DNA of 60,019 nucleotides from a virus: positions 1-60,019 of the IMG/VR virus record IMGVR_UViG_3300015171_000004. One strand, 5' to 3'. Below, piece by piece: positions 4,042-31,589 of the stretch. Position 1 is the stretch's first letter; every line of letters starts with the position of its first letter. A program made the translations under genes and the position numbers. A model generated the notes under the pieces. That model had not been told where the DNA came from and ran no database searches. It worked only from the letters and a program-made list of their open reading frames with translations.

Positions 4042-4119
4042 AGAATACACTGCCGGTCACTACTTTGCAAGGCTTTTATATGAGGTAAAAGTACTGCTTC
4101 CTTGCAAACATTAGTACTA
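4042..4119 (-). promoter_or_regulatory. Early boxed promoter, class II
   Basis: Minus strand: distal TAGTACTA (4112-4119), proximal AGTACT (4090-4095), 19 bp, -35 TTGCAA (4065-4070), 17 bp, -10 TATTCT (4042-4047). An ATG (4034) 7 nt after the -10 opens Met-Lys-Arg-Thr-stop. The upstream gene's TAG (4117-4119) forms the end of the distal box. Confidence 0.85.
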
Positions 4120-4400: not shown

Positions 4401-4478
4401 ATAATACGGCATTCCTGATATAAAAACAAGGCTTCTCTATAAGACATAGGTCCTATTTGAAAAGCCCCATTAGTACTA
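4401..4478 (-). promoter_or_regulatory. Early boxed promoter, class II
   Basis: Minus strand: distal TAGTACTA (4471-4478), degenerate proximal AGGACC (4449-4454), 19 bp, -35 TTGTTT (4424-4429), 17 bp, -10 TATTAT (4401-4406). An ATG at 4394, 6 nt after the -10, opens a nine-codon leader ORF (Met-Glu-Arg-Glu-Thr-Lys-Thr-His-Gly). Confidence 0.8.
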
Positions 4479-4628: not shown

Positions 4629-6219
4629 CTGCGTTAGCCTCATCTTCCTTTATCTTTGTGTACAATTGATAGCCCCTGTGTTGGGTCATGTTTGGGTGAC
4701 TCTTTAGTAGCGCTGCGTACAGCTTTCTCACGCTCTTGTTTCCCTCGGACCACGCAATCACTGCGTCCGCTATCTCATTGGCCTCTGACAAGTCCCTGGT
4801 GAAGTCCTCTGACATCTCCGGCTCCTGTGTGTTTGCCGGAACTGCTGTTTTCTGATGTTCGATACCTCGTTTCATCGGGATAGGCGGCATAATGTCCATA
4901 TCGTCGTACTCTTCTGGTGATGGGAGGTACAGGTCAAGCGCCTCGGTGGGAAGGGCATACTTCGCAAGGTCTCCGTTGAACATTGCGTACATCGCGTCGT
5001 TACCAAACATCGGTACACGTGTCTTGACGGCAGGCTCTCCGTTGGCCCTCATGTACAGCACGCCGCGCCCAAGACCCTGCTTGTCGATATCCTTAATGCT
5101 ATCAAGGTTCAGCAATGCCCGCGCCGTAACAGCATCTCCGCCAGTGTAGTAGCATAGTTGGAAACATGCGCTTGCGCCCGTCGATAGACCCAACGTCTTG
5201 ACTAGTGCATCCTGCATAGCGCACAGGATGGTTATCTTGTACTGCCGGGATAGCCTAAGCAATCTTGCCAGCGGCTCTATAATGTCCTTGTTTTCCGCAA
5301 TCGTGATAGCCATCTCTTCAAACACGATACAGATGTGGGGACCAATGTCCTCACCATTCCGCTCTCGTGCCATGCGCGCTGCCAACTCATCGAACGCTGC
5401 CCACTTCAGAAAGTCACAGATGGCTGTAGCAGTCGTGAGAGGCGGAATAGCTAGCCTATCCTCGATCGGGCCGTAGTCCAACACACTGCCGTCTCGCTGC
5501 TGTTTGTTGCGTGCGTACGTGATATCACAGTGGTACACGGTCAACCCCGCATAGATCAATTGACTCTCGATCATACGCATGAGGATCGTTTTTCCCCCGC
5601 CGCTATACCCTGCTAGAGCAAGGTGTGTCATTCCACTACAATCGGTGTACACAGGCCCGTCAATCGTACGACCCAGGAATATCTGGTTATAGCGTGGTTT
5701 CCAGTTATTTGACATCTCTTGAATGAAGTCATATACCCCTGGCAGCACACGCGGTACGTACGGTGTACCGATACTTAACGGCTGCGCCTGTTTGGTTGGC
5801 AGGTACTGTACGCTTCCCTGTACGGTGTTTTGTGGCAGCATAACAGCCGCCTCCTGTGTTGCGTCGGTTGGAGGCGCTAGTTGGTCCCCCGGTAGGATGA
5901 ACAATTTTCCCTTGACGTACACGCCTTGTGCGCGGTTGCCTATGCTATCGGGCCTGACTACCGACATCTCGCGGTACGTCTTTAGCAGATTGAGACCGCC
6001 AACGATACCTACGTACGATAGCGCACCAACCATGATTATTGCTGCTAGGTACGGGCCTGCCGATGGGAAGTACAGCGCGCCCACAATCACTACGATAGAC
6101 ACCACGACTATCTTGACTATTAGCTGGTATAGTTTAGCCGTCTCGACATGACCGGCCCTTTCCGCAGCCCAGCGGTCCCTGCCGCGCATGCTATTTTCTC
6201 CACTTCTTTGTTTTGACAT
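4621..6219 (-). CDS. Membrane-anchored FtsK/SpoIIIE/HerA-like ATPase, 532 aa
   Basis: Residues about 35-80 hold two membrane segments. The motor domain follows from about residue 190: Walker A GYSGGGKT (near 207), Walker B CIVFEE (near 300), and a later QxD-type motif (AMQDAL). The C-terminal 60 residues form a charged helical domain that could be a winged-helix like FtsK gamma. FtsK-family motors move double-stranded DNA at membranes in division, sporulation and conjugation. Start is ATG 6219, overlapping the upstream TGA in TGATG; a GTG 3 nt upstream is the alternative. Such motors are uncommon in tailed phages. Its early position suggests DNA entry, transfer or host chromosome handling rather than packaging, since a terminase is present. 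Confidence 0.8.
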   Translation of the reverse strand: MSKQRSGENSMRGRDRWAAERAGHVETAKLYQLIVKIVVVSIVVIVGALYFPSAGPYLAAIIMVGALSYVGIVGGLNLLKTYREMSVVRPDSIGNRAQGVYVKGKLFILPGDQLAPPTDATQEAAVMLPQNTVQGSVQYLPTKQAQPLSIGTPYVPRVLPGVYDFIQEMSNNWKPRYNQIFLGRTIDGPVYTDCSGMTHLALAGYSGGGKTILMRMIESQLIYAGLTVYHCDITYARNKQQRDGSVLDYGPIEDRLAIPPLTTATAICDFLKWAAFDELAARMARERNGEDIGPHICIVFEEMAITIAENKDIIEPLARLLRLSRQYKITILCAMQDALVKTLGLSTGASACFQLCYYTGGDAVTARALLNLDSIKDIDKQGLGRGVLYMRANGEPAVKTRVPMFGNDAMYAMFNGDLAKYALPTEALDLYLPSPEEYDDMDIMPPIPMKRGIEHQKTAVPANTQEPEMSEDFTRDLSEANEIADAVIAWSEGNKSVRKLYAALLKSHPNMTQHRGYQLYTKIKEDEANADG

Positions 6220-7603: not shown

Positions 7604-7681
7604 AGTATACTTTGTACTAAGGAGACTTACAAGCTTTTTCTATGAGGCAATAGTACTAGTTTTCGAGAACCATTAGTACTG
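7604..7681 (-). promoter_or_regulatory. Early boxed promoter, class II
   Basis: Minus strand: distal CAGTACTA (7674-7681), proximal TAGTACTA (7651-7658), 19 bp, -35 TTGTAA (7627-7632), 17 bp, -10 TATACT (7604-7609). An ATG at 7596, 7 nt after the -10, opens a nine-codon leader ORF beginning Met-Asn-Asp-Glu. It drives the operon ending with the FtsK-like ATPase and its small membrane partner. Confidence 0.85.
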
Positions 7682-8743: not shown

Positions 8744-8821
8744 ATAATACCCGATGTCAGTGGTAAATACAAGGCTTTTATATGAGACATAAGTACCATA
8801 CAAAAGCCCCCATTAGTACTA
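8744..8821 (-). promoter_or_regulatory. Early boxed promoter, class II
   Basis: Minus strand: distal TAGTACTA (8814-8821), proximal GGTACT (8792-8797), 19 bp, -35 TTGTAT (8767-8772), 17 bp, -10 TATTAT (8744-8749). An ATG at 8737, 6 nt after the -10, opens a 14-codon leader (Met-Glu-Arg-Arg-Thr...) whose TGA overlaps the ATG of the 8696 gene. Confidence 0.85.
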
Positions 8822-11216: not shown

Positions 11217-11294
11217 AGAATACGGCATCTATAGAAGAATAACAAGCCTTTTATATGAGACATAAGTACCATTAAATCGAAACCAATAGTACTA
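11217..11294 (-). promoter_or_regulatory. Early boxed promoter, class II
   Basis: Minus strand: distal TAGTACTA (11287-11294), proximal GGTACT (11265-11270), 19 bp, -35 TTGTTA (11240-11245), 17 bp, -10 TATTCT (11217-11222). An ATG at 11210, 6 nt after the -10, opens a 15-codon leader (Met-Glu-Arg-Arg-Ser...) ending in TGA over the start of the 11166 gene. The upstream TAG stop lies in the distal box. Confidence 0.85.
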
Positions 11295-13611: not shown

Positions 13612-13688
13612 AGTATAGACGATATACGAGAGACTTACAAGGGAATTTACTAGGGTAAAAGTACTAATTTGGGAAACCATTAGTACTA
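13612..13688 (-). promoter_or_regulatory. Early boxed promoter, class II
   Basis: Minus strand: distal TAGTACTA (13681-13688), proximal TAGTACT 22 bp downstream (13660-13666), 19 bp, -35 TTGTAA (13635-13640), 17 bp, -10 TATACT (13612-13617). A TTG at 13604, 7 nt after the -10, is in frame with the zinc-finger-like gene. The upstream TAG stop lies within the distal box. Confidence 0.85.
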
Positions 13689-15725: not shown

Positions 15726-16184
15726 CTAAATGAAACCGTACTTACGGGCGCATATCGCACACACATCGATGGGTTCTTTCCCCCCGGTCGTGGTTAGGGC
15801 GTCAACGGTCGTAAATCCGGTTGACTTGTTTCCCTGTATGTAACAGAATGCGCACACAAGACGCCCGTCAAGGTCGCTGGGCTTTTTGGCGTTGTCGGTG
15901 CCATACAGCCAGCCGAGTGATATGGTACTGTTGCTTGACGCCGTGCCATCGATGCCTGTGGCATTCGGCAGGGTCCATCGTTTGATATCGTTGGCGTCTT
16001 TGCTTCTCTTATCCATACCCAGACATGAGGAACAATAATTCTCGTGTACCAGCACGCCGCCAGTCTCGATATCTTCTAGAAGCTTTACGGTGATGTTATG
16101 TGCCACTTCAACCGGCGTAAGGGCGCTTGCGCATTCTTCACAAAGCATCTTCTCGGCCAGCGCATTCATGTTAGTCGTTTCCAT
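15726..16184 (-). CDS. Four-CxxC zinc-binding protein, 152 aa
   Basis: Four CxxC pairs are visible (CEEC, CSSC, CAFC, CAIC), enough for two zinc sites, separated by a beta-like insert. The pairs sit near residues 15, 51, 112 and 139. It is co-transcribed with the sigma factor and another zinc-ribbon protein, which may hint at a transcription role, but no family is recognised. Confidence 0.65.
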   Translation of the reverse strand: METTNMNALAEKMLCEECASALTPVEVAHNITVKLLEDIETGGVLVHENYCSSCLGMDKRSKDANDIKRWTLPNATGIDGTASSNSTISLGWLYGTDNAKKPSDLDGRLVCAFCYIQGNKSTGFTTVDALTTTGGKEPIDVCAICARKYGFI

Positions 16185-16416
16185 AGATGATTTTTCCCTT
16201 CTGTATCTCTTCTAACGTCTCTTCAAAGATCTGTTTGTACACCTGTACGGCATAGAAAACAGCGTACAACGGTTCTGTGCCCGCCTCAATCAGCGAATGG
16301 TATGGAGCTATGGCACCTGCCGGGACAAACCTCTCTAGGGTGTGTGGCGTCTCTAGCTCGGTATCTATGGTTTCTTTTTCCCCGCTAAACACATTGTATA
16401 GAACAACGTTTTTCAT
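16171..16416 (-). CDS. Hypothetical early protein, 81 aa
   Basis: ATG 16416 overlaps the upstream stop. Helical C-terminal half, acidic. No family recognised. Lies in the sigma-factor operon. Confidence 0.6.
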   Translation of the reverse strand: MKNVVLYNVFSGEKETIDTELETPHTLERFVPAGAIAPYHSLIEAGTEPLYAVFYAVQVYKQIFEETLEEIQKGKIIYGND

Positions 16417-16751
16417 AATTCACCTCTCTCTAGTAACTTCCTGGCTTTGTGGTGGTGGGTTGCGAACATCTTGTAGCATCCTTGACACACAAAGCGGTCT
16501 TTTTTCTCGCTAAATCTCATTGCGTATGACGTATCACCGCACGTTGGGCATTCAAATCCGCGCAGGATAACCTCCATAACGTATCGGCCCGCTAAGTCAC
16601 TCCTAGCATAATACGATACGGTCTCCGCGACGATGTAGTCTATCATCTTGTGCCTGCGTTCAATCCTGCATAGTTTGCATAGTGCTTTCTTTTTGCAGGG
16701 CGCTTCGCACACCATGCATAGGTGTACCTCTCTCTTCTTTATCTTCAGCAT
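16413..16751 (-). CDS. Zinc-ribbon protein, 112 aa
   Basis: Cys pairs lie at the N-terminus (CMVC, then CKLC) and C-terminus (CPTCGD and CQGCYKMF), consistent with two zinc ribbons linked by helices. The C-terminal ribbon resembles those found in transcription or DNA-binding adaptors. Coupled tightly to the sigma gene (2-bp gap). It could be a partner of the sigma factor, which is inference. Confidence 0.6.
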   Translation of the reverse strand: MLKIKKREVHLCMVCEAPCKKKALCKLCRIERRHKMIDYIVAETVSYYARSDLAGRYVMEVILRGFECPTCGDTSYAMRFSEKKDRFVCQGCYKMFATHHHKARKLLERGEL

Positions 16752-16753: not shown

Positions 16754-17314
16754 CTACCTTCCAGCGAAATCGTGAAACTTGGCAGCCAGCTTCGCTACTT
16801 TCTTGCTAACGGTGCCTTGTGCCATAGGCGCTCCGCCCTCAACTTCGGCAATGACCGCAGCCAACTTTGACATGCTAACGTCTTCGTTGTTGACGTAGTA
16901 CTTGACGCGCAGGGCCATAATGACCGCCTCGGACGGGTTCAGCTTTGATACAAATGTCGATAGCAAGTCGTTAAGATCGACTATGCTGTAGTCGTCTGCT
17001 AAGTCTTCTAGGGTCTCGCCAACGCTCTCGCCTTCTTCTGTAACGTAGTCAGAAGATAATTGTGGAAGGATGCGGGCGCGGGTCATTTGTTTACGCTGTA
17101 CGTCAATCATAGCATTCTTGATAGCGATTGCCGCGTATCCCCCGAAGTCGCCCTCCGTTTGATTGCTGATGAACTTGCGGGCCGATAGGAATAGCGCCTC
17201 ATGCCCAGCAGATACGGCGTCGTCAAAGTCTATGGTACGAAACTGTTTTGCAATCTTAGCAACCGTTGCGTAGTTGTCATTAACGAGTGCCTCAATCATT
17301 GCGTCTTTGTTCAT
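16754..17314 (-). CDS. Phage-encoded sigma-70-family factor, 186 aa
   Basis: Region 2 is recognisable at about residues 30-78: FDDAVSAGHEALFLSARKF, then GGYAAIAIKNAMIDVQRKQ, the core-binding and -10-recognition helices. An acidic linker follows, then a region 4-like helix-turn-helix (LNPSEAVIMALRVKYY, ending GTVSKKVAKLAAKF). The length and two-domain build match ECF or sporulation-type group 4 factors, which bind core RNA polymerase and redirect it. ATG 17314 follows TGGAGAACGCA; an ATG 12 nt upstream is possible. It has the strongest early promoter (17360-17404). The eight GGAAT-N18-GTT promoters at the replication genes are its natural candidate targets (inference). Confidence 0.8.
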   Translation of the reverse strand: MNKDAMIEALVNDNYATVAKIAKQFRTIDFDDAVSAGHEALFLSARKFISNQTEGDFGGYAAIAIKNAMIDVQRKQMTRARILPQLSSDYVTEEGESVGETLEDLADDYSIVDLNDLLSTFVSKLNPSEAVIMALRVKYYVNNEDVSMSKLAAVIAEVEGGAPMAQGTVSKKVAKLAAKFHDFAGR

Positions 17315-17359
17315 TGCGTTCTCCATCTCTCTCTTGTTTACGACTGCTTCATTGATGTA

Positions 17360-17404
17360 AGTATAATGTAGCATCCTTGCTATGTCAATGGGATAATAGT
17401 ACTA
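17360..17404 (-). promoter_or_regulatory. Early boxed promoter, class I, upstream of sigma factor
   Basis: Minus strand: TAGTACTA (17397-17404), 9 bp, -35 TTGACA (17383-17388), 17 bp, -10 TATACT (17360-17365). An ATG at 17352, 7 nt after the -10, opens Met-Lys-Gln-Ser-stop. The TAG of the upstream gene is the end of the box. The core is one of the closest to consensus in the window. Confidence 0.9.
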
Positions 17405-18049
17405 CCGAGTTGTTATCGTTTGCCAGTAGTTTCCCACCGTACCATCGGGGGATATCGTTAACAGTACGTAGGCGTTTTGAGCATAAGCCATAGTTTCATA
17501 GCGCATGCCGACATGTATGGTGGTTGTGCTGCTTCTGAGAGAGGGGTTGCTATCCGGAGTTGCAAAGCTCCTATCCTCGCCCGTGACCTGATTGAAGACG
17601 GTTCCTGGGGCATACAGGTACCCGCAGTTAACTTCATAAATCTCCGTGTAAACATTTGTGCACGTTATTGGGGTGCTATCGTCAAGCCACACGCTAGAGC
17701 CGTCGTAACAATACGGAATATCCATAGAAATTTTCCCCGGCGTCTCCCACTGCGTTTTTACCGATAAGTCAACAGAAACATAATGGTACGTTGTGCATGT
17801 CGATGGGTCGCTGGCGGCAACCGCTATGTGGGTAGGTGACATAAACTTTTCGGGCGCTTTTACTGGTGCCTTCGGTGCCACTTTCACTACTGGCTTGACG
17901 GCAACCTTTTTAACTACGGGCTTAACAACTACCTTAACGATGGCTGGTTTCTTTACTGCGGGCTTAGGTGCCGTTTTTGCTTCAACCGAAGTACCGATGG
18001 CAACAACCATAAACAGCGAAATTATCAGGGCGTAAAGTGTTTTGTTCAT
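17402..18049 (-). CDS. Exported early protein with Ala/Lys/Pro linker, 215 aa
   Basis: Signal peptide at the N-terminus (MNKTLYALIISLFMVVAIG, cleavage near SVEA), then a 55-residue Lys-Pro-Val-Ala repeat linker of the cell-wall-spanning type, then a beta-rich domain with four or five Cys. It would lie at or in the envelope. ATG 18049 follows GAGAGAGAAAAAACA. An in-frame ATG at 18088, at the predicted transcription start, would add 13 charged residues before the signal. Monocistronic, with its own class I promoter. Confidence 0.7.
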   Translation of the reverse strand: MNKTLYALIISLFMVVAIGTSVEAKTAPKPAVKKPAIVKVVVKPVVKKVAVKPVVKVAPKAPVKAPEKFMSPTHIAVAASDPSTCTTYHYVSVDLSVKTQWETPGKISMDIPYCYDGSSVWLDDSTPITCTNVYTEIYEVNCGYLYAPGTVFNQVTGEDRSFATPDSNPSLRSSTTTIHVGMRYETMAYAQNAYVLLTISPDGTVGNYWQTITTR

Positions 18050-18094
18050 TGTTTTTTCTCTCTCTCGTGTTTTTGTTTCTTCGTCCATGTATAT

Positions 18095-18162
18095 AGAATA
18101 CGGCAGAATGACAAATATGTCAATGAGACATAAGTACCATTCTGCCATAACCATTAGTCCTG
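18095..18162 (-). promoter_or_regulatory. Early boxed promoter, class I (two boxes)
   Basis: Minus strand: degenerate distal CAGGACTA (18155-18162), proximal GGTACT 23 bp on, 9 bp, -35 TTGACA (18118-18123), 17 bp, -10 TATTCT (18095-18100). An ATG at 18088, 6 nt after the -10, is in frame with the exported protein. The upstream TAA overlaps the distal box. Confidence 0.85.
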
Positions 18163-18702
18163 TATCAATTCTACCGTGTTTATCATTAGCTCTATGGTGC
18201 CACTTAATGAAGACATGCGTATGATATCAGCAACGCTATCCTCCACCAGTTCAAAAGCGTACTCGGTGGATACCCGGCGTATGTCCTTGTGATAGTAGCG
18301 TAGTTTATCGTCCCTAGTCCATACTCCGTCAAGCTCCCCAGGTTGCATAAAGAGTCTCAGCACCTCATGCTGGCTTACTTCGTATAAGTGGGGCGTAGGC
18401 ACAACTATGGGGGCATACCGCGCTGACAGGGCCGCCAGCCACCTCTCACCATTGACGCGCCCGAAGTTGCTGATGTTGTCGTCAAAGGACTTCATGTTTC
18501 GTTCCACCTTGACGAATACGCCCTCCTCTAGTGGGAATTGAAACGACATTGCATCGTTATCAGCAACCACACAAAAGTTAGGAGTCCAGACGGCCAGACC
18601 AACCTGGGTTAATAGCGCGTACATGTCTTGAGATGCGAGCGTGTCAAGGATAATCTTCTCGACGGGGGAAACTTTCTGTCTCTTCGCCTTGTGAATAGCC
18701 AT
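18154..18702 (-). CDS. Hypothetical protein of the recombination operon, 182 aa
   Basis: Soluble, with a basic N-terminus (AIHKAKRQK) and alternating helical and beta segments. Last gene of an operon with a RuvC-like resolvase and a Cas4-like nuclease, one base after the former. No family recognised; a role in recombination or genome handling is implied only by context. Confidence 0.6.
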   Translation of the reverse strand: MAIHKAKRQKVSPVEKIILDTLASQDMYALLTQVGLAVWTPNFCVVADNDAMSFQFPLEEGVFVKVERNMKSFDDNISNFGRVNGERWLAALSARYAPIVVPTPHLYEVSQHEVLRLFMQPGELDGVWTRDDKLRYYHKDIRRVSTEYAFELVEDSVADIIRMSSLSGTIELMINTVELIQD

Positions 18703-19164
18703 TTATAGAACCTCCGCATGTTTTACGCCCACCGAATAGGCGTATGCTATGCTAATTGCGTCTGCCACGTCGTCGTCAACGCGCATCATGTATCGAGAGA
18801 ATGCAGCATCAATAACTGCCTGCTTATCGCACTTTCCGTTACCCGTAAACGCTTTGTGATGGGTGGTTGTGTTCACGACGTATACGGGCAGGTCTATCGT
18901 ATCTACGATGTGGTACGTCATTGCAAACAATGCTACCATAGTCTTGATGGAAGGAAAGCGCCTGGGTTCTTCCATAACGATAGCCTCTATGTCCCAGAAG
19001 TCCATAAGGTACATGACCTTCTCTGCCATGAGGGCGCGCTTCTGTTTGCGCGTTGCCTTCTTATGGTATTCTGTATCTGCCGTCTCTAGCACCTCCATAG
19101 AGACGGTATCGAACACACAAAAGCCCGCATGCGTGTAACTCTGATCTATTGCTGCTATCTTCAT
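18703..19164 (-). CDS. RuvC-like Holliday junction resolvase, 153 aa
   Basis: RNase H-fold motifs in order: AIDQS (catalytic Asp near residue 6), VMEEP (Glu near residue 62), and DDVADAI (paired Asp near residues 131-135). Lacks the extended loops of bacterial RuvC, as usual for phage versions. It would cut branched DNA before packaging. ATG 19164 overlaps the upstream TGA (AAATGAAG). Confidence 0.75.
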   Translation of the reverse strand: MKIAAIDQSYTHAGFCVFDTVSMEVLETADTEYHKKATRKQKRALMAEKVMYLMDFWDIEAIVMEEPRRFPSIKTMVALFAMTYHIVDTIDLPVYVVNTTTHHKAFTGNGKCDKQAVIDAAFSRYMMRVDDDVADAISIAYAYSVGVKHAEVL

Positions 19165-19997
19165 TTCAGTAACCTCTCGAAACGCTTTTCCGGATGGAAG
19201 CAAACGTCTGACACTGGGCAGTTTTTAGCCCTACCGCTATTCTCATCTTTGCATACGCCCTTAACCAGTCGGTGGTTTATTTCATTCTCCTTTAGGCATC
19301 GTAGCAGGTCTTTAGAGCGTTGCACGTACGGCAGGACTAGTTCCCGGTCGTACTCTACTTCAAAGGCTAGGAAGTTTTGCGTGTTCTTATCCTCAAAGAT
19401 TAGCACGGCCTTATAAATTCCAGTAAGGTGCATGTACAGATTAGCCTGCCGCAGCGCGTCCTGGTACTTTGGGTTCATCTCAGGATTAGACGCTATCTTC
19501 TCGTATGTCTCATGTCCGTACCCCTTAATCTCGCATATGTATTGTTCACCGTCAACCTCTAATATGATATCTGGTGTAAACGAGAGGGCTATCTTTGACG
19601 GCTCATATTCAATGTGGTACCGCTTGCCAAGTCCAGTGATGTATCTGTATTCCCCTGGCAGGATCGATATGTTCGATAGACTGTCAAGGTTAATAAGGTG
19701 CTCCGTCTCATTGTATAGAGCCATCCCGGCGTCAAGTGCCAATTTCTGCCATTTTTCGTGAATTGTCCACCCCGCCAGGAATATCCGTAGCAGGGGCGCA
19801 TCAATCTCCGGCGTGTCGCGTTCGTACCTCGTCCCTAGAACATGTTCACGGTGGCAATACTTGCTAGTGCCTACGGTTGCGTGTGCCAATAGGCTAGAGG
19901 CGTGAAAACCGCTCCGCGCCCCCTTGTTGTCGTTCCAAACGTGAAACAATCCATCTAGCCTGCGCTTCCATAGTGCGTTCTTTATCACGTTTCCCAT
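19161..19997 (-). CDS. Cas4/RecB-like PD-(D/E)XK nuclease with Fe-S cysteines, 278 aa
   Basis: The nuclease core is FTPDIILEVDG followed by CEIKGYG (about residues 152-170), the D...ExK metal site. A Cys near residue 49 (KYCHREH) and three near the C-terminus (KGVCKD, KNCPVSDVCF) have the spacing of the 4Fe-4S cluster of Cas4 and AddB-type nucleases. Known members are 5'-3' exonucleases. ATG 19997 overlaps the upstream TAA in TAATG. No CRISPR array or cas1/cas2 is nearby, so a replication or recombination role is more likely. Confidence 0.75.
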   Translation of the reverse strand: MGNVIKNALWKRRLDGLFHVWNDNKGARSGFHASSLLAHATVGTSKYCHREHVLGTRYERDTPEIDAPLLRIFLAGWTIHEKWQKLALDAGMALYNETEHLINLDSLSNISILPGEYRYITGLGKRYHIEYEPSKIALSFTPDIILEVDGEQYICEIKGYGHETYEKIASNPEMNPKYQDALRQANLYMHLTGIYKAVLIFEDKNTQNFLAFEVEYDRELVLPYVQRSKDLLRCLKENEINHRLVKGVCKDENSGRAKNCPVSDVCFHPEKRFERLLK

Positions 19998-20311
19998 TAT
20001 TTGGTCTCGACATATTCCCACGACTTGATAGAGCCGTGATTAACGAGGTAAGTGAGGATGGACTCCACAATAGGGCCGTCCTCAATATCCGCAACCAACA
20101 CGCGACCGACACGAGGAACGAGGATGCGCTTTTCAATCTTCAGCGCCTCAAATGGGTTGCTCCATGCCTTATCAATCTCTTCTCCATACATTTCGCGGGC
20201 TTTTTCTCCCAGGTCTTTTAGTGACAGGATGGACTCGTCAATCAAGTGACCCATCACTTTTAACTGTATCTCATCATCAACATTCATCTCGATTGCTATT
20301 TTACGTAACAT
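19997..20311 (-). CDS. Hypothetical protein of the recombination operon, 104 aa
   Basis: ATG 20311 follows AAAGGAAAACAAAA. Helical N-terminal two thirds, beta-like end. First gene after the middle-type promoter at 20349-20381. No family recognised. Confidence 0.6.
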   Translation of the reverse strand: MLRKIAIEMNVDDEIQLKVMGHLIDESILSLKDLGEKAREMYGEEIDKAWSNPFEALKIEKRILVPRVGRVLVADIEDGPIVESILTYLVNHGSIKSWEYVETK

Positions 20312-20348
20312 TTTTGTTTTCCTTTACTGATATCTACGTCTCTCTCTC

Positions 20349-20381
20349 TAATACAAACGGATGCCGCGCCCTAGTTATTCC
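20349..20381 (-). promoter_or_regulatory. Middle promoter, ECF-like (GGAAT-N18-GTTTGTATTA)
   Basis: Minus strand: GGAAT (20377-20381), 18 bp, GTT (20356-20358) within GTTTGTATTA. Same layout as seven other sites in 20-31.5 kb. Heads the operon of the Cas4-like and RuvC-like nucleases. Confidence 0.8.
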
Positions 20382-20402
20382 ATCAAATGAGAGCCACGTA
20401 GA

Positions 20403-20456
20403 AGGGCCTTGCAAGGAAGAAACGTATAATCTACCGTCTCATCCCCACAAGGCCCT
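20403..20456. terminator. Long-loop inverted repeat after DNA polymerase gene
   Basis: Arms AGGGCCTTG (20403-20411) and CAAGGCCCT (20448-20456) enclose a 36-nt loop, starting 21 bp after the polymerase stop. The T-tract is weak. It probably ends or attenuates the polymerase transcript before the next middle promoter. Confidence 0.5.
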
Positions 20457-20477
20457 GTGTTGAGTCTCTCCTAAAGA

Positions 20478-23177
20478 CTACTTGCCATTCCTGGCTTTTG
20501 CCCTCGCTTGTTTCAGCTTTTGATAGAGCGTCTTGCAATATCGTCTGGATAATTCAACGATATCCTTATCGTCGAACACTAACGCGCCCGCTTTTTCCAG
20601 AACATCATAGGCACGCTCGTTTACCTGCCGCTTGGGGATAAGTGAACGCATATGCCCGGCACTCTCGTATGGACCCATCTCGATAATAGACCGCGCTGCC
20701 ACAGGCCCGATACCTGCTATGGAGGATATCCCCTTCTGTATCCACTTATCACCATCCTTGTCGGTCACTACCTGATAGTCGCTAGAGGAATTGACCGTTG
20801 CTATCATAATCGATACCCCGCTGTTTAGCGCGTCAAGTTCGTACTCTATGCGCTTCACTTCTTTCTCTTCAGACATTAGCAGGGCGCAGTAGTACTCCAC
20901 AGGGTGGTAGTGTTTCAGGTATGCCGTATAGTAGGAGAATAGCCCGTACCCAACGGCGTGCGCTTTCTTGAACCCATAGAGAGACAAGCAATCGAACATG
21001 TCCTGGGCGTTCTCATCACTTAGGCCGCGCCCCTTTAGGCCCGCAAGCATTTTGTCCTGCAACCCCTTGTACTGGCCTATCGTCTTTTTCGAGACCGCTT
21101 TGATTAGCTTGTCGGTCTCTTGCCTATCAAGTCCAGCCCACAAACAAAGTTTAATAATGTGGTCGCTATACAGGAATACGCCGTACGTGTCTGGCGCTAT
21201 CTCCATTTCATAGCTGGGTATATCCGCTCTATCAACTCCGTCAAGCAGGCGCTCGGCATATTTATCTAGGTATCCGAAGGCTAGCGGACCCGGCCTATTG
21301 ATGCCATTCAGTGCGAATATGTCCATATCCGTTTGTGGAGACACCTGATAAGCGTACTCCTTAGCCTGGCGGCTATCGAATTGGAACACGCCCGTTAGTA
21401 TGCCCTCTCTGAAGTCATTCAGTACGGCGTCGTCATTGCGTATAGAGTAGATGTCGTATTTCTTCCCTATCATCTTCTCACAGTTCGCTACGGTATCCAG
21501 CGTGCCAAGACCCAACACATCAAACTTGACGATACCGATATGTCCCAGGTCGTTCAGGTCAAAAGCAGTTTGCAGTCCATTCTTGCTATGCTGCAAAGGT
21601 ACCATTGTATCAATGTCCTTGGTTGCAATGGCTATGCCTGCTGGGTGCATTCCAATGTATCGCACCTGTCCATACAGGCGTACGAAGTGGGTGACTGCCT
21701 TGCACTCTTGCTCGGCGTCCCTTAACGCGCCCGCAGTCATAAGGTACGACCGCAGGGTTATCTTATCCATGTCACTGCTTGTTTTCCCCTCCAACATTGC
21801 GTCAAGGCGCATCTTGAATGCACGCCCTTCGTCCTCTGACATCTCTAGGGCTTTCACCAGATCGTTAGCAAGGTTTTTCACCTGATAGTATCCGTACGTG
21901 GATATCTGCGCGGCCCGCCCCTCATACTTGCGCATGATGTAGGCAACAACCTCGCCACGACGTGACCGGGGAAAGTCCATATCAATGTCAGGCGTTGTCT
22001 CCTTATCCTCTCGCAAGAATGTATCGAACGGGATATCATATAGGATAGGGTCTATTTCTGTCACACCGATAGCAAAAGCCAGCAGAGAGCCACACACGGA
22101 CCCGCGCCCGAAGTTGGCACGTATCCCGTTGTCTCTTGCGAACTTGTACAGGTCATAGCAGAGAAGGAAGTAGTCAATGAATCCCTTTTTCATGACCGTG
22201 TTAAATTCGTACGCTAGCCTATCCCGGTATACCTTGTTGGCGTCTCCAACATATAGGCCCGCCCGCTTTAGGCCATTCTTACAGATGTTATACAGCTTTG
22301 TCTTGCTATCCTCTCCCCATTCAAGGCTAGGGATTTCTTCCTTATTGAAGATGTCCACCAAATCGCACTTATCGGCTATGCGGTCGGTCTCAGCGATACA
22401 AGCAACGTCGTCACAACTATAGGGAGTATCCCCCATAAGTTCCTGCCAAGCACACACCAACTCAATCTCGTTGCCTATGTGTCGGTTATGGTACGTCGCT
22501 TCGTCCATCGTCTTGTTTCCCATCTTCATCATTAGTTGATGGGTCTCTTCTTCTTCCTTGCGTATGAAGTGGCTATCCTGGGTCATGACTCCCTTGACGC
22601 CGTGCTTTTTCCCTAGCTCTAGTACTTTTCCGTTGACCATCTTCTGATGGCCTGTCTCATCTCCGTACGGTTGCACCTCCATATAGAAGTTATCGCCAAA
22701 CAGTTTCTTGAACGCCGCAGTGGACTTATCGGCAAGTTCATCCTGGCCGTTCAGGATGGCCTGGGGGATGAATGCGCCTAAGCATCCACTAGTGACTATC
22801 AGTCCCTTACTAAAGCGCTTCAACAAGTCCCAGGTGATGATAGGGTGATAGTAGTATTGTGTCTCAGAAGCGATAGAGACCATTTGACATAGGTTCTTGT
22901 ATCCCTCCAACGTCTGACATAGAACGGTCATGTGATAACGTTTGTGTTCCTTGTCAGGGTGGAATGTATGCTGCCAGTATATTTCGCATCCGTGTATCCA
23001 CTTGATACCTGCCGCCTGACAACCCAGCTGGTGTCGGACTAGTCCAGACATGGTGCCGTGGTCTGTGTTTGCTAGGGCGTTTAGTCCCTGATCTTTGGCA
23101 TGTTGGGCCGCCTCTTCACACGTACCCATTCCATCAAAGTTTGAAAAGCAACTATGTTTATGCAGTGCACTAGCCAT
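20478..23177 (-). CDS. dnaE: DnaE-type DNA polymerase III alpha subunit, 899 aa
   Basis: The N-terminal PHP domain is clear (HKHSCFSNFDG, ANTDHG, GCEIYW, all within the first 70 residues). The C-family polymerase core has the catalytic PDIDMDFPRSRR near residue 405 and GVFQFDS and NRPGP segments. A helix-hairpin-helix (ISSIAGIGPVAARSI) lies near residue 840. At 899 aa it is about 250 shorter than bacterial DnaE and seems to lack the C-terminal OB and tau-binding regions, as in other phage versions. It is the replicative polymerase. ATG 23177 overlaps the stop of the HNH gene. Confidence 0.95.
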   Translation of the reverse strand: MASALHKHSCFSNFDGMGTCEEAAQHAKDQGLNALANTDHGTMSGLVRHQLGCQAAGIKWIHGCEIYWQHTFHPDKEHKRYHMTVLCQTLEGYKNLCQMVSIASETQYYYHPIITWDLLKRFSKGLIVTSGCLGAFIPQAILNGQDELADKSTAAFKKLFGDNFYMEVQPYGDETGHQKMVNGKVLELGKKHGVKGVMTQDSHFIRKEEEETHQLMMKMGNKTMDEATYHNRHIGNEIELVCAWQELMGDTPYSCDDVACIAETDRIADKCDLVDIFNKEEIPSLEWGEDSKTKLYNICKNGLKRAGLYVGDANKVYRDRLAYEFNTVMKKGFIDYFLLCYDLYKFARDNGIRANFGRGSVCGSLLAFAIGVTEIDPILYDIPFDTFLREDKETTPDIDMDFPRSRRGEVVAYIMRKYEGRAAQISTYGYYQVKNLANDLVKALEMSEDEGRAFKMRLDAMLEGKTSSDMDKITLRSYLMTAGALRDAEQECKAVTHFVRLYGQVRYIGMHPAGIAIATKDIDTMVPLQHSKNGLQTAFDLNDLGHIGIVKFDVLGLGTLDTVANCEKMIGKKYDIYSIRNDDAVLNDFREGILTGVFQFDSRQAKEYAYQVSPQTDMDIFALNGINRPGPLAFGYLDKYAERLLDGVDRADIPSYEMEIAPDTYGVFLYSDHIIKLCLWAGLDRQETDKLIKAVSKKTIGQYKGLQDKMLAGLKGRGLSDENAQDMFDCLSLYGFKKAHAVGYGLFSYYTAYLKHYHPVEYYCALLMSEEKEVKRIEYELDALNSGVSIMIATVNSSSDYQVVTDKDGDKWIQKGISSIAGIGPVAARSIIEMGPYESAGHMRSLIPKRQVNERAYDVLEKAGALVFDDKDIVELSRRYCKTLYQKLKQARAKARNGK

Positions 23178-23604
23178 TATTTTTCCATTCCTTTACATTT
23201 TCGTCAAGCCAACTATCTCGTAACTCAATTAGAGCCACAATATTTTTAGACTCTCTAGTTATTCGCTTTTCACCGTGTCTTACTTGCAGTATGTAAGACC
23301 CCCTAGATTCCCTATAGTGTATGTTTTTATGCCCCGTCTTATTGTTGGCTTGTTTGGGCCTGTTCATCATGTTAAGGGCCTTGGTAGCCAGTCTTAGGTT
23401 ACATCTGCGGTTATCTAATTTATCATTATTTATGTGGTCAATCTGGTAATCAGAAATTTCGCCAAACATGCGCTCCGCTATCACGCGATGAAGCATGACG
23501 TGCTTACCTTTTTTCTTTGTCTCGGCATATCCGCGCCTACAAGCATACACGTTGCTAGCATACAGGTCTGCGTCAATCTCATCAAACTTAAATCTTTCGT
23601 CCAT
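23170..23604 (-). CDS. HNH endonuclease (homing-type), 144 aa
   Basis: The HNH core is YQIDHINNDKLDNRRCNLR (about residues 77-95), followed by an AP2-like DNA-binding segment (GHKNIHYRESRGSYILQV). This is the common free-standing phage homing endonuclease build. It lies directly in front of the polymerase gene and overlaps its start, so its promoter (23622-23654) also serves the polymerase. A paralogue is at 24995-25450. Confidence 0.9.
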   Translation of the reverse strand: MDERFKFDEIDADLYASNVYACRRGYAETKKKGKHVMLHRVIAERMFGEISDYQIDHINNDKLDNRRCNLRLATKALNMMNRPKQANNKTGHKNIHYRESRGSYILQVRHGEKRITRESKNIVALIELRDSWLDENVKEWKNNG

Positions 23605-23621: not shown

Positions 23622-23654
23622 TAATATTAACGGTTGTCGCGGAGCAAATATTCC
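23622..23654 (-). promoter_or_regulatory. Middle promoter, ECF-like
   Basis: Minus strand: GGAAT (23650-23654), 18 bp, GTT (23629-23631) within GTTAATATTA. Heads the HNH-DNA polymerase operon. The ribosome binding site AAGGAG is only a few bases downstream, giving a very short leader. Confidence 0.75.
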
Positions 23655-23685
23655 CCCACCTCGTGAGAAGCGGGGGGGCTTAGTA

Positions 23686-24994: not shown

Positions 24995-25450
24995 TTAGCT
25001 CTCTTTCTTTCTTGTGTTCTTGAATTCCCCAGCAACTGCTGTAAGGAAGTTATCTCTCTCTTCTATAAGTCTGTTTAGGTCTTTAGAGACCCTAACTAGT
25101 TTTTGCCCCGATATCCTAACCTGTAGGACGTATTTTTGTATCTTGCTATCGAAGTGTATGTTTTTTATTCCTAGCCTGTTATCCTTGTGTGTCGTTGTAT
25201 TCATGCAATTCTGTTTGCGTGTCGCTAGTCTCAGGTTGCATCTACGATTGTCAAGTTTATCACCGTTTATGTGGTCTATGTCAAGACCTATGCAAGAATC
25301 GTAACCAAAAATCTCCTCTCCTGTCTCTCTGTGAACATAGACGCCCGCCCACTTCCCACATTCCCAAGACACTCTCTGCGCATATCCGCTAGGTGTCATT
25401 CTTACGCAACCTTCGTATTTTTTGGCGTCTATCTCGTCATACCTAAGCAT
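24995..25450 (-). CDS. HNH endonuclease (homing-type), 151 aa
   Basis: Core IDHINGDKLDNRRCNLR (about residues 58-74) and GIKNIHFDSKIQKYVLQV show it is a paralogue of the 23170-23604 enzyme. It precedes the ssDNA-binding protein gene and shares its middle promoter (25499-25531). Both copies thus sit first in a replication operon. Confidence 0.9.
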   Translation of the reverse strand: MLRYDEIDAKKYEGCVRMTPSGYAQRVSWECGKWAGVYVHRETGEEIFGYDSCIGLDIDHINGDKLDNRRCNLRLATRKQNCMNTTTHKDNRLGIKNIHFDSKIQKYVLQVRISGQKLVRVSKDLNRLIEERDNFLTAVAGEFKNTRKKES

Positions 25451-25498: not shown

Positions 25499-25531
25499 TA
25501 ATACTAACGTTTGGGGTATCCGGATTATTCC
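25499..25531 (-). promoter_or_regulatory. Middle promoter, ECF-like
   Basis: Minus strand: GGAAT (25527-25531), 18 bp, GTT (25506-25508) within GTTAGTATTA. It overlaps the last codons of the primase gene and heads the HNH-SSB-DUF3310 operon. Confidence 0.85.
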
Positions 25532-26460
25532 ACCAATTCGTAAGAAGTTTCTACGCAGTGCTTCATCTCCTCTCTAGACTCAATTTCTCCCAAGTCATTT
25601 CTCCCACCGAAGTAGAAGCGCGTGACCGGGATGCTGGGGGCGTTCTTCTCAAACCACTGTCTAGCTACCCTATACCCACGCTCCCCCGCCGTATCGTTGT
25701 CTGTGCTCCATAGAACACCGCTAGCGTACGACGCTATCTTCTTTAGTTGTGGCTCCGATGGAGTGCAGCCAAGAATGCACGCCGTGTTTTTGTATCCGTT
25801 CTGGTATGCCTTAATCCGGTCAAACATTCCCTCGGCAACAATCACGCGCTTACCAGCTACCAATGTTCCCGGCAGCGTCGTCTCTTTAATGAGTCCCAGA
25901 TTGTTCTTGTATTTTCTGTCCTTTACATCGTCAACGCGCCGCGCCACGTATCCCTTAAAGTTTCCCTGTTCAATCAGGGGAATGACGATGGGATTAGTGC
26001 TAGTGTCGTTTGTGCGTATGTGGAACGCCCGCTGCGTCTCGTATGACACGCCCCTATCACTTAGGTAGGGTATCGGTGCCTGCGGTTTCATGAGGCTCTT
26101 ATAGAACCTGTATACGTCGTCTAGCTCCTCTATCGGTTGTTGGCGTATCGATCTGGTAACACTGCTTTGCATTTTGCCGTCGTACTTTGCTATCTCAACT
26201 CCTGATAGCGAACGATGCGCCCGCAGGATTGCTTGCATGATAGAAAGATGTGGGTTTTCCTCTATCTCGTATCTTGCGATAAGTTCTAGGATGTCCCCCT
26301 CTTCGTTACAGGCCATACACCGAAAACTTCCATACGTCATATTGATGGATAGGCTTGGCGTGTTGTCGTCATGGAAGGGGCATATGATAGCAACGAAGTC
26401 CTTGTGTTCATCCCTCTCTTGTATAATGCCCCTGTCAATCAGGATGTCACTTAGTAGCAT
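25525..26460 (-). CDS. DnaG-type primase (CHC2 zinc finger + TOPRIM), 311 aa
   Basis: CHC2 zinc finger at about residues 27-52: CPFHDDNTPSLSI then FRCMAC. The TOPRIM domain has VIVAEGMFDRIKA (Glu near 207) and STDNDTAGERG (DxD near 255). It synthesises RNA primers. No helicase domain is fused, and no separate DnaB-like helicase was recognised in the window. ATG 26460 follows GGAGGGACTGGAC. Coupled to the small gene upstream. Confidence 0.9.
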   Translation of the reverse strand: MLLSDILIDRGIIQERDEHKDFVAIICPFHDDNTPSLSINMTYGSFRCMACNEEGDILELIARYEIEENPHLSIMQAILRAHRSLSGVEIAKYDGKMQSSVTRSIRQQPIEELDDVYRFYKSLMKPQAPIPYLSDRGVSYETQRAFHIRTNDTSTNPIVIPLIEQGNFKGYVARRVDDVKDRKYKNNLGLIKETTLPGTLVAGKRVIVAEGMFDRIKAYQNGYKNTACILGCTPSEPQLKKIASYASGVLWSTDNDTAGERGYRVARQWFEKNAPSIPVTRFYFGGRNDLGEIESREEMKHCVETSYELVE

Positions 26461-26651
26461 GTCCAGTCCCTCCAATGGGGAACGTATTCACCTAGTATCT
26501 GGCTCTCTAGGACGATGTGCGCATGCCCCCTGGCAATAATGACATACTTTTGTTCCTCTAGCTCTTCTCGCTTCATGACCTGCACAATAGAGCCGCTTCG
26601 GGCGCAGTCACAATCCCTAGCGAATACTACTCTGTCTCCGATGTCGTACAT
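26451..26651 (-). CDS. Hypothetical small protein, 66 aa
   Basis: Beta-rich, SH3/KOW-like start (DIGDRVVFARDCD). ATG 26651 overlaps the methyltransferase end, and its stop overlaps the primase start. No family recognised. Confidence 0.6.
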   Translation of the reverse strand: MYDIGDRVVFARDCDCARSGSIVQVMKREELEEQKYVIIARGHAHIVLESQILGEYVPHWRDWTCY

Positions 26652-27410
26652 TCTGATATCTCCTTTTTAACTCTCTCTATCCTCTCGCATCCACGCACGA
26701 AGTAAGCTTCGTCTTTTTCAAATGCGAGATACTTTCTATTTGTTAACAGACATGCATGAACCGTTGACATACTACCTGCGCAACTATCGAGAACTAAATC
26801 CCCCTCATTGGTATAGGTTTTCAACAGGTATTCCAGCAATGGTACAGCTTTTCTCGTGGGGTGCCAGGCGTCAAGTCCATTGTTTGGATTAGCGAACTTT
26901 AGCACGCTGCGGGGATATCGTTCGTCGCTCTCCGTAACCCTACCTACCCTGTCCTGTTTTCCGTAGTTTGTGCTGTTGTCGATGCCCGCGACCTTCCTGT
27001 ACGGCTCTCCCTTTGTCATTTGTGGGTTGTACGTTGGGAGATGTTTGTAGAAGACTAGTATCTCTTCGTGGGCTTTTAGTGGTGCTTTCTTAGCATTCAG
27101 GTGACCCACAGCCATCGTCTTTTCCCATATGAGATTATACCTAAGCATCTCTAGGTTAGACGCACCCAGGACTATGCTAAATGGCACCTGCGCGAATAAG
27201 ACGATAGCACCATTGTCTTTTATCACCCTCTTGTATTGCGCCCACAATGCATCTAGAGGGATAACGCTGTCCCAGGAGTTGCGTGTGGTGCCGTCAATAG
27301 GGCAAATCAGTCAATATCATGTCAATTGATTTGCTAGGTACTAGTGGCAGAAGCTCTAAGCAGTCTCCGTTATAGCAAGCGTTACGACGTAATTTACTAA
27401 TTTGCCCCAT
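26627..27410 (-). pseudogene. DNA N4/N6 methyltransferase, beta class, frameshifted
   Basis: The first 38 codons run from ATG 27410 (AAAGGAGGAAAAA upstream) through NGDCLELLP and the catalytic DLPY, then hit TGA (27294-27296). The rest, in the +1 frame, continues GTTRNSWD and on through FAQVPFS, NLIWEK and the SAM-binding VLDSCAGSMST near the end. Motif IV before motif I marks the beta class. A 4-bp TGAC insertion after the Tyr codon explains the break, because removing it restores DLPYGTTRN. As written the gene should be inactive, unless a ribosomal frameshift or a sequencing error is involved. The shorter frame from 27247 lacks the catalytic motif. Confidence 0.75.
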
Positions 27411-27663: not shown

Positions 27664-27696
27664 GAATACTAACGTTTGCCAGGGGTAAATTATTCC
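27664..27696 (-). promoter_or_regulatory. Middle promoter, ECF-like
   Basis: Minus strand: GGAAT (27692-27696), 18 bp, GTT (27671-27673) within GTTAGTATTC. Heads the operon with two small genes, methyltransferase, a small gene and primase. Lies directly after a strong terminator. Confidence 0.85.
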
Positions 27697-27706
27697 AAAT
27701 AAAGAA

Positions 27707-27985: not shown

Positions 27986-28167
27986 TAGAGTACCTTTCCT
28001 TCTATCCATTCAACTTCCATATTCATGAAAGCTACGTTCTCTCCTAAGTTTTTCAGGTGTCGCTCTAGGTTTTCCGACACCATCCGGAGCGCCTCGTATG
28101 CGCTGTTGACGTTGACGAAGAATTTTACTTCTTCGCCTCCGCTAAGTGTAACAGTAACCTTATACAT
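27985..28167 (-). CDS. Hypothetical protein, 60 aa
   Basis: ATG 28167 overlaps the end of the phosphoesterase gene; TAATG couples it to the next. Beta-beta-alpha-like pattern. No family recognised. Confidence 0.6.
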   Translation of the reverse strand: MYKVTVTLSGGEEVKFFVNVNSAYEALRMVSENLERHLKNLGENVAFMNMEVEWIEGKVL

Positions 28168-29566
28168 TCTCGAAATCGCCTCTCGACTGTTTGCGCACTA
28201 CATCTAGGTACACATGTGACACCGATACAACGCCCTTGCTATCGTTGACCGTCATAAGAGTCTGGGAGGGACGGTGAATGCTCTTGTGGGCGCTTAGTAC
28301 GTACGGAGACGTGGGTGGGAAAGAACCGTTCACTACACACATCGTATCGTACCCCGTATTGAACTGTACGGCGTTATGGAAGTGACCAATGACGTACACG
28401 TCAATCACGCCCTCAAAATGCTGGTACTTGTTTACGGCAGTGATCATTGCGTTCATCGGTACACCAACCGCGCCGCCAGCACCCCGGATGCTAGATCCGT
28501 GTTCAAACAGGACATTCAGGTCTCCAACCTGGGTTACAGCGTAGATGCTTTCGTGGTTAGTGAGAGTCACGCGACCGGCGCCAATTGGTCCCTCTAGTAT
28601 CTGTCTTGCAACCTCGCCAGCCATCCAGTCATACGAGCTAGCTGGGTCAATTTCGGCAAGCCCGCCGAGTCCTGCTTTTTGGCTTGTGCGTGCATGGTTT
28701 CCAGACACACGTTCCACTTGCACTTCGGCAACGAATGGTAGGAGCGAGGCGACGAACTGCGCCAACAAGCGACCGTATGCAACCGACTGTTTGACCGCGA
28801 TAGGCCCAACGAAACGATGCTGTGATGGGCGCATATCGTCACCGTCAACGTCGTCACCTAAGTCAAGAATGATCAACTTGCGAAACTGCTGTTTAATGGA
28901 CTCCTTAACGACGCCTGCATGCAGCATCTCAAACTGGCGCTCCGCATCTTTGGAGGTGTATTCGTATCCGCTAGTGAGGCGGGCAGGAACATGCATGCCG
29001 TAGTGTACATCTGAGATGATAAGCAAGCCGACATTCTCACTGTGTTCGTTGTTGTAAGCAATCAATTTGGGTGTCTCAACACGTGCCGATACGCTTCTAA
29101 CGGACTCGGTGTACTGACGACGAACTGCCTCACGCTGCGCAAGTTCCCGAAGCTCCCTAACGCTTTCCATATTGGCAAGCTTATCACCGTACTCTTGTAC
29201 CGCGTCTTCGGTGTCTTGGCTTACGGCCATCTGCATTAGCTTGTCACCCAACTCCCTGACCTGCTCGGCAGTCGTTCCCTGCTGTTGTGCGTACAGAGGA
29301 TAGGAGGTGTCTGCGGTGATATTTACCTTGATATCGGATGGTGATGTGTACCGTGCATCCTCGTGACCCTGCACAAAGTCAAAGCCCCTTGTGTCTTCGG
29401 TTACTGCTTTCTTCGCGGCAGACTCTGCATAGTGTGCCTTGACGATATTCTTAGCGGCGTGTCTGGTTACTCCAAAGGCGCGGCCCAGGTCTGCATACGA
29501 TAGCTTAGGGTTGCCATCGAACATGTTTACTAGTTGTTTTGCAATCTGGTTATATTTACTGGACAT
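28160..29566 (-). CDS. HTH-metallophosphoesterase (SbcD/Mre11-like), 468 aa
   Basis: Calcineurin-like metal motifs occur in order: SDVHYG (about residue 186), LGDDVDG (about 238), SGNHART (about 288), and VIGHFH (about 395). The N-terminal 60 residues look like a helix-turn-helix (YADLGRAFGVTRHAAKNIV), followed by a coiled linker. Such phage proteins are probable DNA nucleases or phosphatases acting in replication or repair. No SbcC/Rad50 partner is seen. Start is ATG 29566; a TTG at 29590 is close to the promoter. Confidence 0.8.
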   Translation of the reverse strand: MSSKYNQIAKQLVNMFDGNPKLSYADLGRAFGVTRHAAKNIVKAHYAESAAKKAVTEDTRGFDFVQGHEDARYTSPSDIKVNITADTSYPLYAQQQGTTAEQVRELGDKLMQMAVSQDTEDAVQEYGDKLANMESVRELRELAQREAVRRQYTESVRSVSARVETPKLIAYNNEHSENVGLLIISDVHYGMHVPARLTSGYEYTSKDAERQFEMLHAGVVKESIKQQFRKLIILDLGDDVDGDDMRPSQHRFVGPIAVKQSVAYGRLLAQFVASLLPFVAEVQVERVSGNHARTSQKAGLGGLAEIDPASSYDWMAGEVARQILEGPIGAGRVTLTNHESIYAVTQVGDLNVLFEHGSSIRGAGGAVGVPMNAMITAVNKYQHFEGVIDVYVIGHFHNAVQFNTGYDTMCVVNGSFPPTSPYVLSAHKSIHRPSQTLMTVNDSKGVVSVSHVYLDVVRKQSRGDFENV

Positions 29567-29600
29567 GTTTTCTACTTTCTTGCTATTCAATTTCTCTCAC

Positions 29601-29633
29601 TAGTACTAACGTGCGTCCCTGCAAGATTATTCC
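29601..29633 (-). promoter_or_regulatory. Middle promoter, ECF-like
   Basis: Minus strand: GGAAT (29629-29633), 18 bp, GTT (29608-29610) within GTTAGTACTA. Heads the metallophosphoesterase operon. Confidence 0.85.
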
Positions 29634-29634
29634 A

Positions 29635-30090
29635 CTACTTTTTGTTGGCTCTCTTCTGCCAAAAGTTTTTCTCATAGGTATCGGACTTAAAAATGTCTTC
29701 AATGCGTCCATTCTTCTCGTTGTATGTGTATCCCTCAAGTTCCGGTAACTCTTCCCAAACTGTCAGGAAACAGGTCATTTCATCTTCGGTGGCTCTGAAT
29801 GTGGTTATGGCATGATAGCCAAGTTCCCTAAAATGATCTACCATATCGTTACGCATCGTTGCCGGAATAACTACGGTGGTGTATGCGAACGGGCCTGTGT
29901 CCTTCTGGCTCAATCCGAAAAACACCATATCCGTGTAGGTACTGCGGCTTAACTGTGGCTCACGTGTTCCCGGCCTTCCGATAAGTTCATCTATCTGTTT
30001 TTTCATCGTTGCGTCCATCTCGTTTATGTTCTCCCATTTCTTTCTTGCTAAATCTATCCGTTTGTTTAGTCGTCTTCGTTTCCGTGTCAA
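29635..30090 (-). CDS. Hypothetical protein, 151 aa
   Basis: The likely start is TTG 30090, behind AGAGAGAAACA; ATG 30018 (GGGAGAA upstream) is an alternative. The first 25 residues are strongly basic (TRKRRRLNKR), the rest alpha/beta. Single gene between two middle promoters. No family recognised. Confidence 0.6.
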   Translation of the reverse strand: MTRKRRRLNKRIDLARKKWENINEMDATMKKQIDELIGRPGTREPQLSRSTYTDMVFFGLSQKDTGPFAYTTVVIPATMRNDMVDHFRELGYHAITTFRATEDEMTCFLTVWEELPELEGYTYNEKNGRIEDIFKSDTYEKNFWQKRANKK

Positions 30091-30104: not shown

Positions 30105-30137
30105 TAATACTAACGCATGCCGTGGGCGGATTATTCC
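30105..30137 (-). promoter_or_regulatory. Middle promoter, ECF-like
   Basis: Minus strand: GGAAT (30133-30137), 18 bp, GTT (30112-30114) within GTTAGTATTA. Drives the 151-aa gene. Confidence 0.85.
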
Positions 30138-30661
30138 ATCAGTTAGAAACAGGTGCACCAATGCGCCCAAGGACAAGTATACCATAGCGGTTGTGTCGTG
30201 TATAGGGTGGTGTGTTCGCATGCGTGTGTACGTGTGTATACGAGAAAGCATAGTAGCGTTGATGAGAGGGTTGTCAGGGGCTTCGTGTGGTCAAAGTGGT
30301 ATGATTATGGGTCTATGCATTTACAGGCCATCTCTTGACCGTCTCATTAGATATATAACTGAGGCGAATGATTTGGATGAAAACCATAACGAATGTTTCC
30401 CCTTAGTAAACCCCTTCTCTCCGGTTGACTACCTAAGTATAATAGTATTCTTGTATCTTGTCAAGGGTATATATTATGGAAGATATATAGTATACATATT
30501 GGAGTAAGGATAGTCCTATATCTATAGATATTATACTGGGATATATATATAGTCTTATATTTGGGAGTAAGAGTTATGGAAGATACATAGTGAGGATACA
30601 TATCTACAATCCTTATATTGTGAGGATATAAAGCCCTGATATATGGGTATTTTATATTGGA
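30138..30661. other. AT-rich non-coding region with degenerate repeats, possible replication origin or control region
   Basis: No convincing gene. It lies at the only divergence point of transcription. The part from about 30430 to 30670 is very AT-rich and has four ATATTGGAG-like motifs (30496-30508, 30557-30571, 30615-30628, 30654-30667) and two copies of TTATGGAAGATAYATAGT (from 30474 and from 30574). The last motif overlaps the promoter of the antirepressor gene. Iteron-like repeats in an AT-rich gap next to replication genes fit an origin or a multi-site operator. Confidence 0.4.
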
Positions 30662-30694
30662 GGAATATTTCATCTCTCGCATACGTTGGTATTA
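30662..30694 (+). promoter_or_regulatory. Middle promoter, ECF-like, plus strand
   Basis: GGAAT (30662-30666), 18 bp, GTT (30685-30687) within GTTGGTATTA. Upstream of the Rha-like gene. Confidence 0.8.
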
Positions 30695-31479: not shown

Positions 31480-31481
31480 AT

Positions 31482-31514
31482 GGAATAACCTGGGGACGGG
31501 AAACGTTAGTATTA
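31482..31514 (+). promoter_or_regulatory. Middle promoter, ECF-like, plus strand
   Basis: GGAAT (31482-31486), 18 bp, GTT (31505-31507) within GTTAGTATTA. It begins 3 bp after the antirepressor stop and stands in tandem with an early boxed promoter, both pointing at the exported protein. Confidence 0.85.
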
Positions 31515-31521: not shown

Positions 31522-31589
31522 TAGTACAAATGGTTCTCTCCCCATAGTACTATTGCCTCATTGACCTAGCGGAATAAATGCCGTATAAC
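31522..31589 (+). promoter_or_regulatory. Early boxed promoter, class I (two boxes), plus strand
   Basis: Distal TAGTACA (31522-31528), proximal TAGTACT (31545-31551) 23 bp on, 9 bp, -35 TTGACC (31561-31566), 17 bp, -10 TATAAC (31584-31589). It is the only boxed promoter on the plus strand and outside 0-18.2 kb. Confidence 0.85.

Follow-up and report, generated by a model that had tools for sequence, protein, structure and literature searches.

A phage-encoded sigma factor that likely directs early-to-middle transcription in an uncultured siphophage

What turns on the replication genes of this phage: its own sigma factor, a factor of the host, or something else? The window analysed here is the whole stretch of 60,019 bases, which is a complete IMG/VR record. 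Its recognised phage genes include those for the large terminase, portal, HK97-type capsid, tape measure and DnaE-type polymerase. The tape-measure gene carries tandem repeats of 87 bp (38371-38544) and 66 bp (40241-40372). A preliminary description of the locus proposed a cascade in which an ECF-like phage sigma factor, not a phage polymerase, drives the replication genes. In SPO1, an early phage sigma factor, gp28, turns the host polymerase to the middle genes; SPO1 is of a type unrelated to the present phage, and its promoter sequence is different.

The candidate factor, P0001, belongs to the sigma-70 family with good confidence. The mechanical open reading frame at the locus (16754-17374) would encode 206 residues. 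Its start codon, ATG 17374, sits within a sigmaA promoter and was rejected; because the ATG at 17314 is preceded by a purine-rich leader and the upstream ATG lies inside the promoter, P0001 is assigned a length of 186 residues. The NCBIfam model TIGR02937 (sigma70-ECF superfamily) aligns to residues 7-175 over model positions 3-156 of 165 (E = 4.7e-11), spanning sigma2 and sigma4 in order, with a score of 42.6 bits that is 0.3 bit short of the curated cut-off of 42.9. PHROG 351, annotated as 'RNA polymerase sigma factor', matches at E = 1.3e-7, and Pfam Sigma70_r2 matches at E = 6e-4, under the Pfam cut-off. An AlphaFold model computed from the single sequence, without an alignment, has a pLDDT of about 80-89 across most of sigma2 and below 50 beyond residue 137; its C-terminal 50 residues are poor, yet the helices expected of sigma4 are present. 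All 50 Foldseek matches listed from the PDB are sigma factors, every one with an E-value above 0.01, and the top match among those listed is the N-terminal domain of SigE (rmsd 2.0, TM 0.84 by target length). A profile of P0001 and two phage sigma factors from another record, and thus only partly P0001, matches both domains of solved SigH (E = 3e-10). The superfamily alignment, PHROG 351 and the sigma-only fold matches uphold the initial assignment of a 186-residue sigma-70-family protein with regions 2 and 4.

The label 'ECF-like', in contrast, is only partly right. ECF factors have two domains and lack regions 1.1 and 3. The modelled sigma2 helices of P0001 end at residue 89 and sigma4 starts at 114, which would leave no room for a region 3, although these limits depend on the low-confidence C-terminal half of the model. 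Size and two-domain plan therefore fit the label, but no named ECF subfamily gave a significant match (TIGR02999, E = 0.08; TIGR02985, E = 0.06). Besides the superfamily model, the best matches of region 2 are of the FliA/WhiG type (E = 5.7e-7 to 3e-6), ahead of the named ECF subfamilies.

The factor is encoded in an early-type operon. Immediately upstream of its TTGACA-17-TATACT promoter lies GTACTATTATCCCA, a copy of the early box with two mismatches; the window holds seven copies of this box at up to three mismatches, against none in shuffled sequences. The promoter had been ranked among the strongest early boxed promoters, a view that its core sustains, being among the window's best, but its box does not, since closer copies exist elsewhere. 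P0002, P0003 and P0004 follow P0001 in touching or overlapping frames, and the next sigmaA promoter is at 15706. The two proteins earlier described as co-expressed and zinc-binding are Cys-rich and share this operon; from their Cys patterns, P0002 and P0004 probably bind zinc, with weak HMM support (for P0002, weak Elf1-like and zinc-ribbon matches).

The boxes recur elsewhere in the window. The form GTACTWWTGYCTCAT abuts the -35 of early promoters on the minus strand at 1184-1203, 7637-7656, 8777-8796, 11250-11269, 17383-17402 and 18118-18137, and a plus-strand copy does so at 31547-31566. Several early promoters carry a second box, TAGTACTA, about 23 nt upstream. On the plus strand the outer boxes have the sequence CATTAGTACTA (2418-2428, 4109-4119, 4468-4478, 8811-8821 and 13678-13688), one base away from the block CGTTAGTAYTA of the middle -10 element described below. 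Signal-peptide-like proteins are encoded in early-type units at 17402-18049 (-) and 31633-32469 (+).

A second promoter class, TGGAATAA-N15-CGTTAGTATTA, was found at eight sites with one invariant spacing and at most three mismatches (Table 1). It consists of a -35 element GGAATAA, a 15-nt spacer and the -10 element CGTTAGTATTA. At up to three mismatches the pattern yields 10 register hits, where shuffled sequences predict 0.1, and when spaced hexamer pairs are counted without bias, this class and the sigmaA class both come out on top. GGAATA and CGTT are invariant in all eight sites, and conservation amounts to about 40 bits in all. None of the eight has a sigmaA -35 at a distance of 16-18 nt from the -10. 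The sites are confined to 20.3-31.5 kb of the window.

Table 1 Coordinates of the sigma operon and of the putative middle promoters in the window
Feature	Position	Strand	Detail
P0001, 186-aa sigma-70-family factor	16757-17314	-	start ATG 17314
SigmaA-type promoter of sigma operon, TTGACA-17-TATACT	17360-17388	-	11/12 consensus matches
Early box TAGTACTATTATCCCA abutting -35 of sigma operon promoter	17383-17404	-	2-mismatch copy of GTACTWWTGYCTCATTGACA
P0002, 112-aa Cys-rich protein with CxxC pairs, operon gene 2	16413-16751	-	from sequence
P0003, 81-aa protein, operon gene 3	16171-16416	-	overlapping frame
P0004, 152-aa Cys-rich protein with several CxxC pairs, operon gene 4	15726-16184	-	from sequence
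Putative middle promoter before P0009, Cas4-like nuclease and RuvC resolvase	20349-20382	-	1 mismatch
Putative middle promoter before HNH gene 23170-23604 and DnaE 20478-23177	23622-23655	-	3 mismatches; GGAATA, CGTT kept
Putative middle promoter before HNH endonuclease gene 24995-25450 (PHROG 99)	25499-25532	-	0 mismatches
Putative middle promoter after hairpin 27730-27705, upstream of DNA methylase region	27664-27697	-	1 mismatch
Putative middle promoter before SbcD-like exonuclease gene 28160-29590	29601-29634	-	1 mismatch
Putative middle promoter before 151-aa ORF 29635-30090	30105-30138	-	0 mismatches
Putative middle promoter before Rha/KilAC antirepressor gene 30751-31479 (+)	30661-30694	+	3 mismatches; GGAATA, CGTT kept
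Putative middle promoter before secreted DUF916/WxLIP-like gene 31633-32469 (+)	31481-31514	+	0 mismatches; gene named from Pfam matches

Each site lies 10-118 nt 5' of the start of an ORF on the same strand, and the two plus-strand sites precede plus-strand genes. Two of the eight sit directly after terminator-like hairpins, one of which (23676-23653) precedes the promoter at 23622-23655. Given the similarity of their block TAGTAYTA to TAGTACTA, the palindromic early box, the sites might be operators for a repressor or antirepressor rather than promoters. We find this reading barely tenable: the strict gene-ward orientation, the single fixed spacing, the promoter-sized span, the nearby start codons, the two preceding hairpins and the lack of another promoter in most of these gaps all argue against it.

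The -10 part also contains TAGTAT, with four of six matches to TATAAT, and the phage has many small early genes without an assigned role. The sites could accordingly be sigmaA promoters that depend on a phage activator occupying the -35, in the manner of T4 MotA. The CGTT just 5' of TAGTAT is invariant throughout, the -35 block stands at ECF spacing, and no MotA-like protein was seen among the genes scanned, which together make an activator very unlikely.

The class does resemble known ECF targets, as had been proposed: its sites combine a -35 of the ECF type (GGAA) with a short -10 at ECF spacing. All eight sites match GGAAT-N18-GTT, the consensus of the actinobacterial ECF factor SigH, given for Corynebacterium glutamicum as GGAAT-N18-19-GTT (PMC10012870). 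GGAAT-N18-GTT alone retrieves exactly these eight and two more, which fall within the long ORFs of the tail and capsid; the total of 10 compares with an expected 1.5. The likeness also feeds the chief rival to a phage-driven switch: a host SigH/SigR-type factor of the thiol-stress class, released on infection, would read the middle promoters, and P0001 would have another task, such as displacing sigmaA or reading other sites. The pattern GGAATA-N17-GTT, which fits all eight, is identical to that of verified C. glutamicum SigH promoters, among them mshC and trxB1 (PMC10012870). A host with SigH is possible, on two weak hints: a weak LGFP-repeat match in the endolysin, and neighbouring genes for DUF916/WxLIP-like proteins that have relatives in actinomycetes and Paenibacillus. 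Two properties of P0001 count against it as the reader: it matches no named ECF subfamily significantly, and its sigma4 half is modelled with low confidence. Against a host reader, the roughly 40 bits of conservation far exceed the host consensus, as one would expect if a factor were devoted to these sites; timing would be poorly served by a stress factor under anti-sigma control; and the phage's own sigma factor would have no other promoter class left. We consider a host reader unlikely.

The middle promoters share the core GGAAT-N18-GTT with those of SigH/SigR (PMC10012870), but they have far more positions in common with one another, and P0001 is not recognisably of the SigH/SigR subfamily. 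A further reading, to which we assign a distinctly low probability, is that the promoters of P0001 copy the host stress core and are shared by phage and host holoenzymes. If so, both P0001 and the thiol-stress factor of the host could read the replication module, and phage replication would be coupled to host stress.

The genes behind the sites lie in the replication region (Table 1). The exonuclease matches PHROG 284 (E = 4e-36) and the antirepressor PHROG 63 (E = 5e-20), and a DnaG-like primase lies between the sites at 27664 and 25532. The DUF916/WxLIP-like gene also has a boxed sigmaA promoter (box 31547-31566). The DNA methylase frame (26627-27409, minus strand) is broken by a frameshift within its DLPY motif, which may be real, programmed or an assembly error. 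The two minus-strand HNH genes, each right behind a middle promoter, have partly repeated coding DNA.

We conclude that P0001 reading the eight middle promoters, in an early-to-middle switch, is the best and a likely explanation. Host RNA polymerase with sigmaA would transcribe the sigma operon early, from its boxed promoter. P0001 would then bind the host core polymerase and direct it to the eight bipartite promoters, which would stand at the head of the operons for replication and recombination and of the divergent antirepressor and DUF916-like genes. The family of the factor, its early promoter, and the class, place, spacing and orientation of the sites can be read directly from the DNA. 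The match of reader to sites, and the timing, we infer, the former because P0001 is the sole sigma factor recognised in the phage and this is the sole non-sigmaA class found. The structural region has its own unboxed sigmaA-like promoters, and none of the larger ORFs scanned was recognised as a phage RNA polymerase. The cascade first proposed is thereby supported in its sigmaA-type early promoter, its ECF-type class in the replication region and its lack of a recognised phage polymerase, and the step from P0001 to the sites is its conditional part.

Searches for relatives returned no homologue of P0001 by tblastn in INPHARED, in a single-protein scan of IMG/VR or in a scan with a three-sequence alignment. 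A phmmer search over the ORFs of 80 IMG/VR DnaE relatives and phage loci found only P0001 itself. Neither IMG/VR nor INPHARED yielded a homologous phage or a genuine copy of the middle promoters. When 36 DnaE relatives were screened for sigma genes, three records gave matches to PHROG 351, of which two were short. An exact-pattern scan for the middle promoter gave two single-copy matches in IMG/VR, at least one within coding sequence and both taken as chance, and one in GTDB genomes, within a diguanylate-cyclase-type ORF. The early-box scan of IMG/VR gave no match.

The nearest relatives in gene order are Andromeda-type Bacillus phages, Geobacillus phage GBK1 and BpsS-36, with which the sigma gene shares its neighbourhood. 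As in Andromeda-type phages and GBK1, the genes for DnaE, a PD-(D/E)XK/Cas4-like nuclease, a Holliday resolvase and a sigma factor occur together: P0001 comes after the other three (window 16754-23177). In Andromeda and GBK1, however, the sigma gene is inside the replication operon, whereas that of P0001 is separated by two intervening genes and has its own early promoter. No pairwise BLASTP similarity links P0001 to the sigma factors of Andromeda, GBK1 and BpsS-36, and a profile of those three misses it. No promoter class of the middle type was found in Andromeda, GBK1 and 44 relatives. GBK1 carries intergenic copies of AAAAGTGTAACC...TGATATATATTTAGTGAG at 5711-5748 and 42983-43020 (34 of 38 positions identical), possibly a GBK1-specific promoter. 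A published note on two phages of this group suggests polymerase modulation and maps no promoters (PMC9658697).

The predicted arrangement resembles that of phiEco32, SU10 and 7-11, which combine a phage ECF-type sigma factor, early genes read by host sigma70 and conserved, low-copy phage-specific promoters (PMC4281155, PMC4331800, PMC7881722). The sigma factor gp36 of phiEco32 reads both middle and late promoters (PMC4281155). In that group, unlike here, the phage factor drives structural genes too, and the reported motif is of a -10 type, tAATGTATAtA. The promoters of the present class have two parts, one of them a strong -35, and are restricted to the replication region; the structural genes keep sigmaA-like promoters. 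The switch looks self-made by the phage, and its kind is already known from other phages.

The window thus contains a predicted full switch for a divergent uncultured siphophage: a factor, its early promoter and eight putative cognate sites. The compact pair of sigma factor and promoter might find use as a tool for orthogonal expression. If P0001 reads these sites, replication genes alone, without the structural genes, can sit under a phage ECF-type sigma factor.
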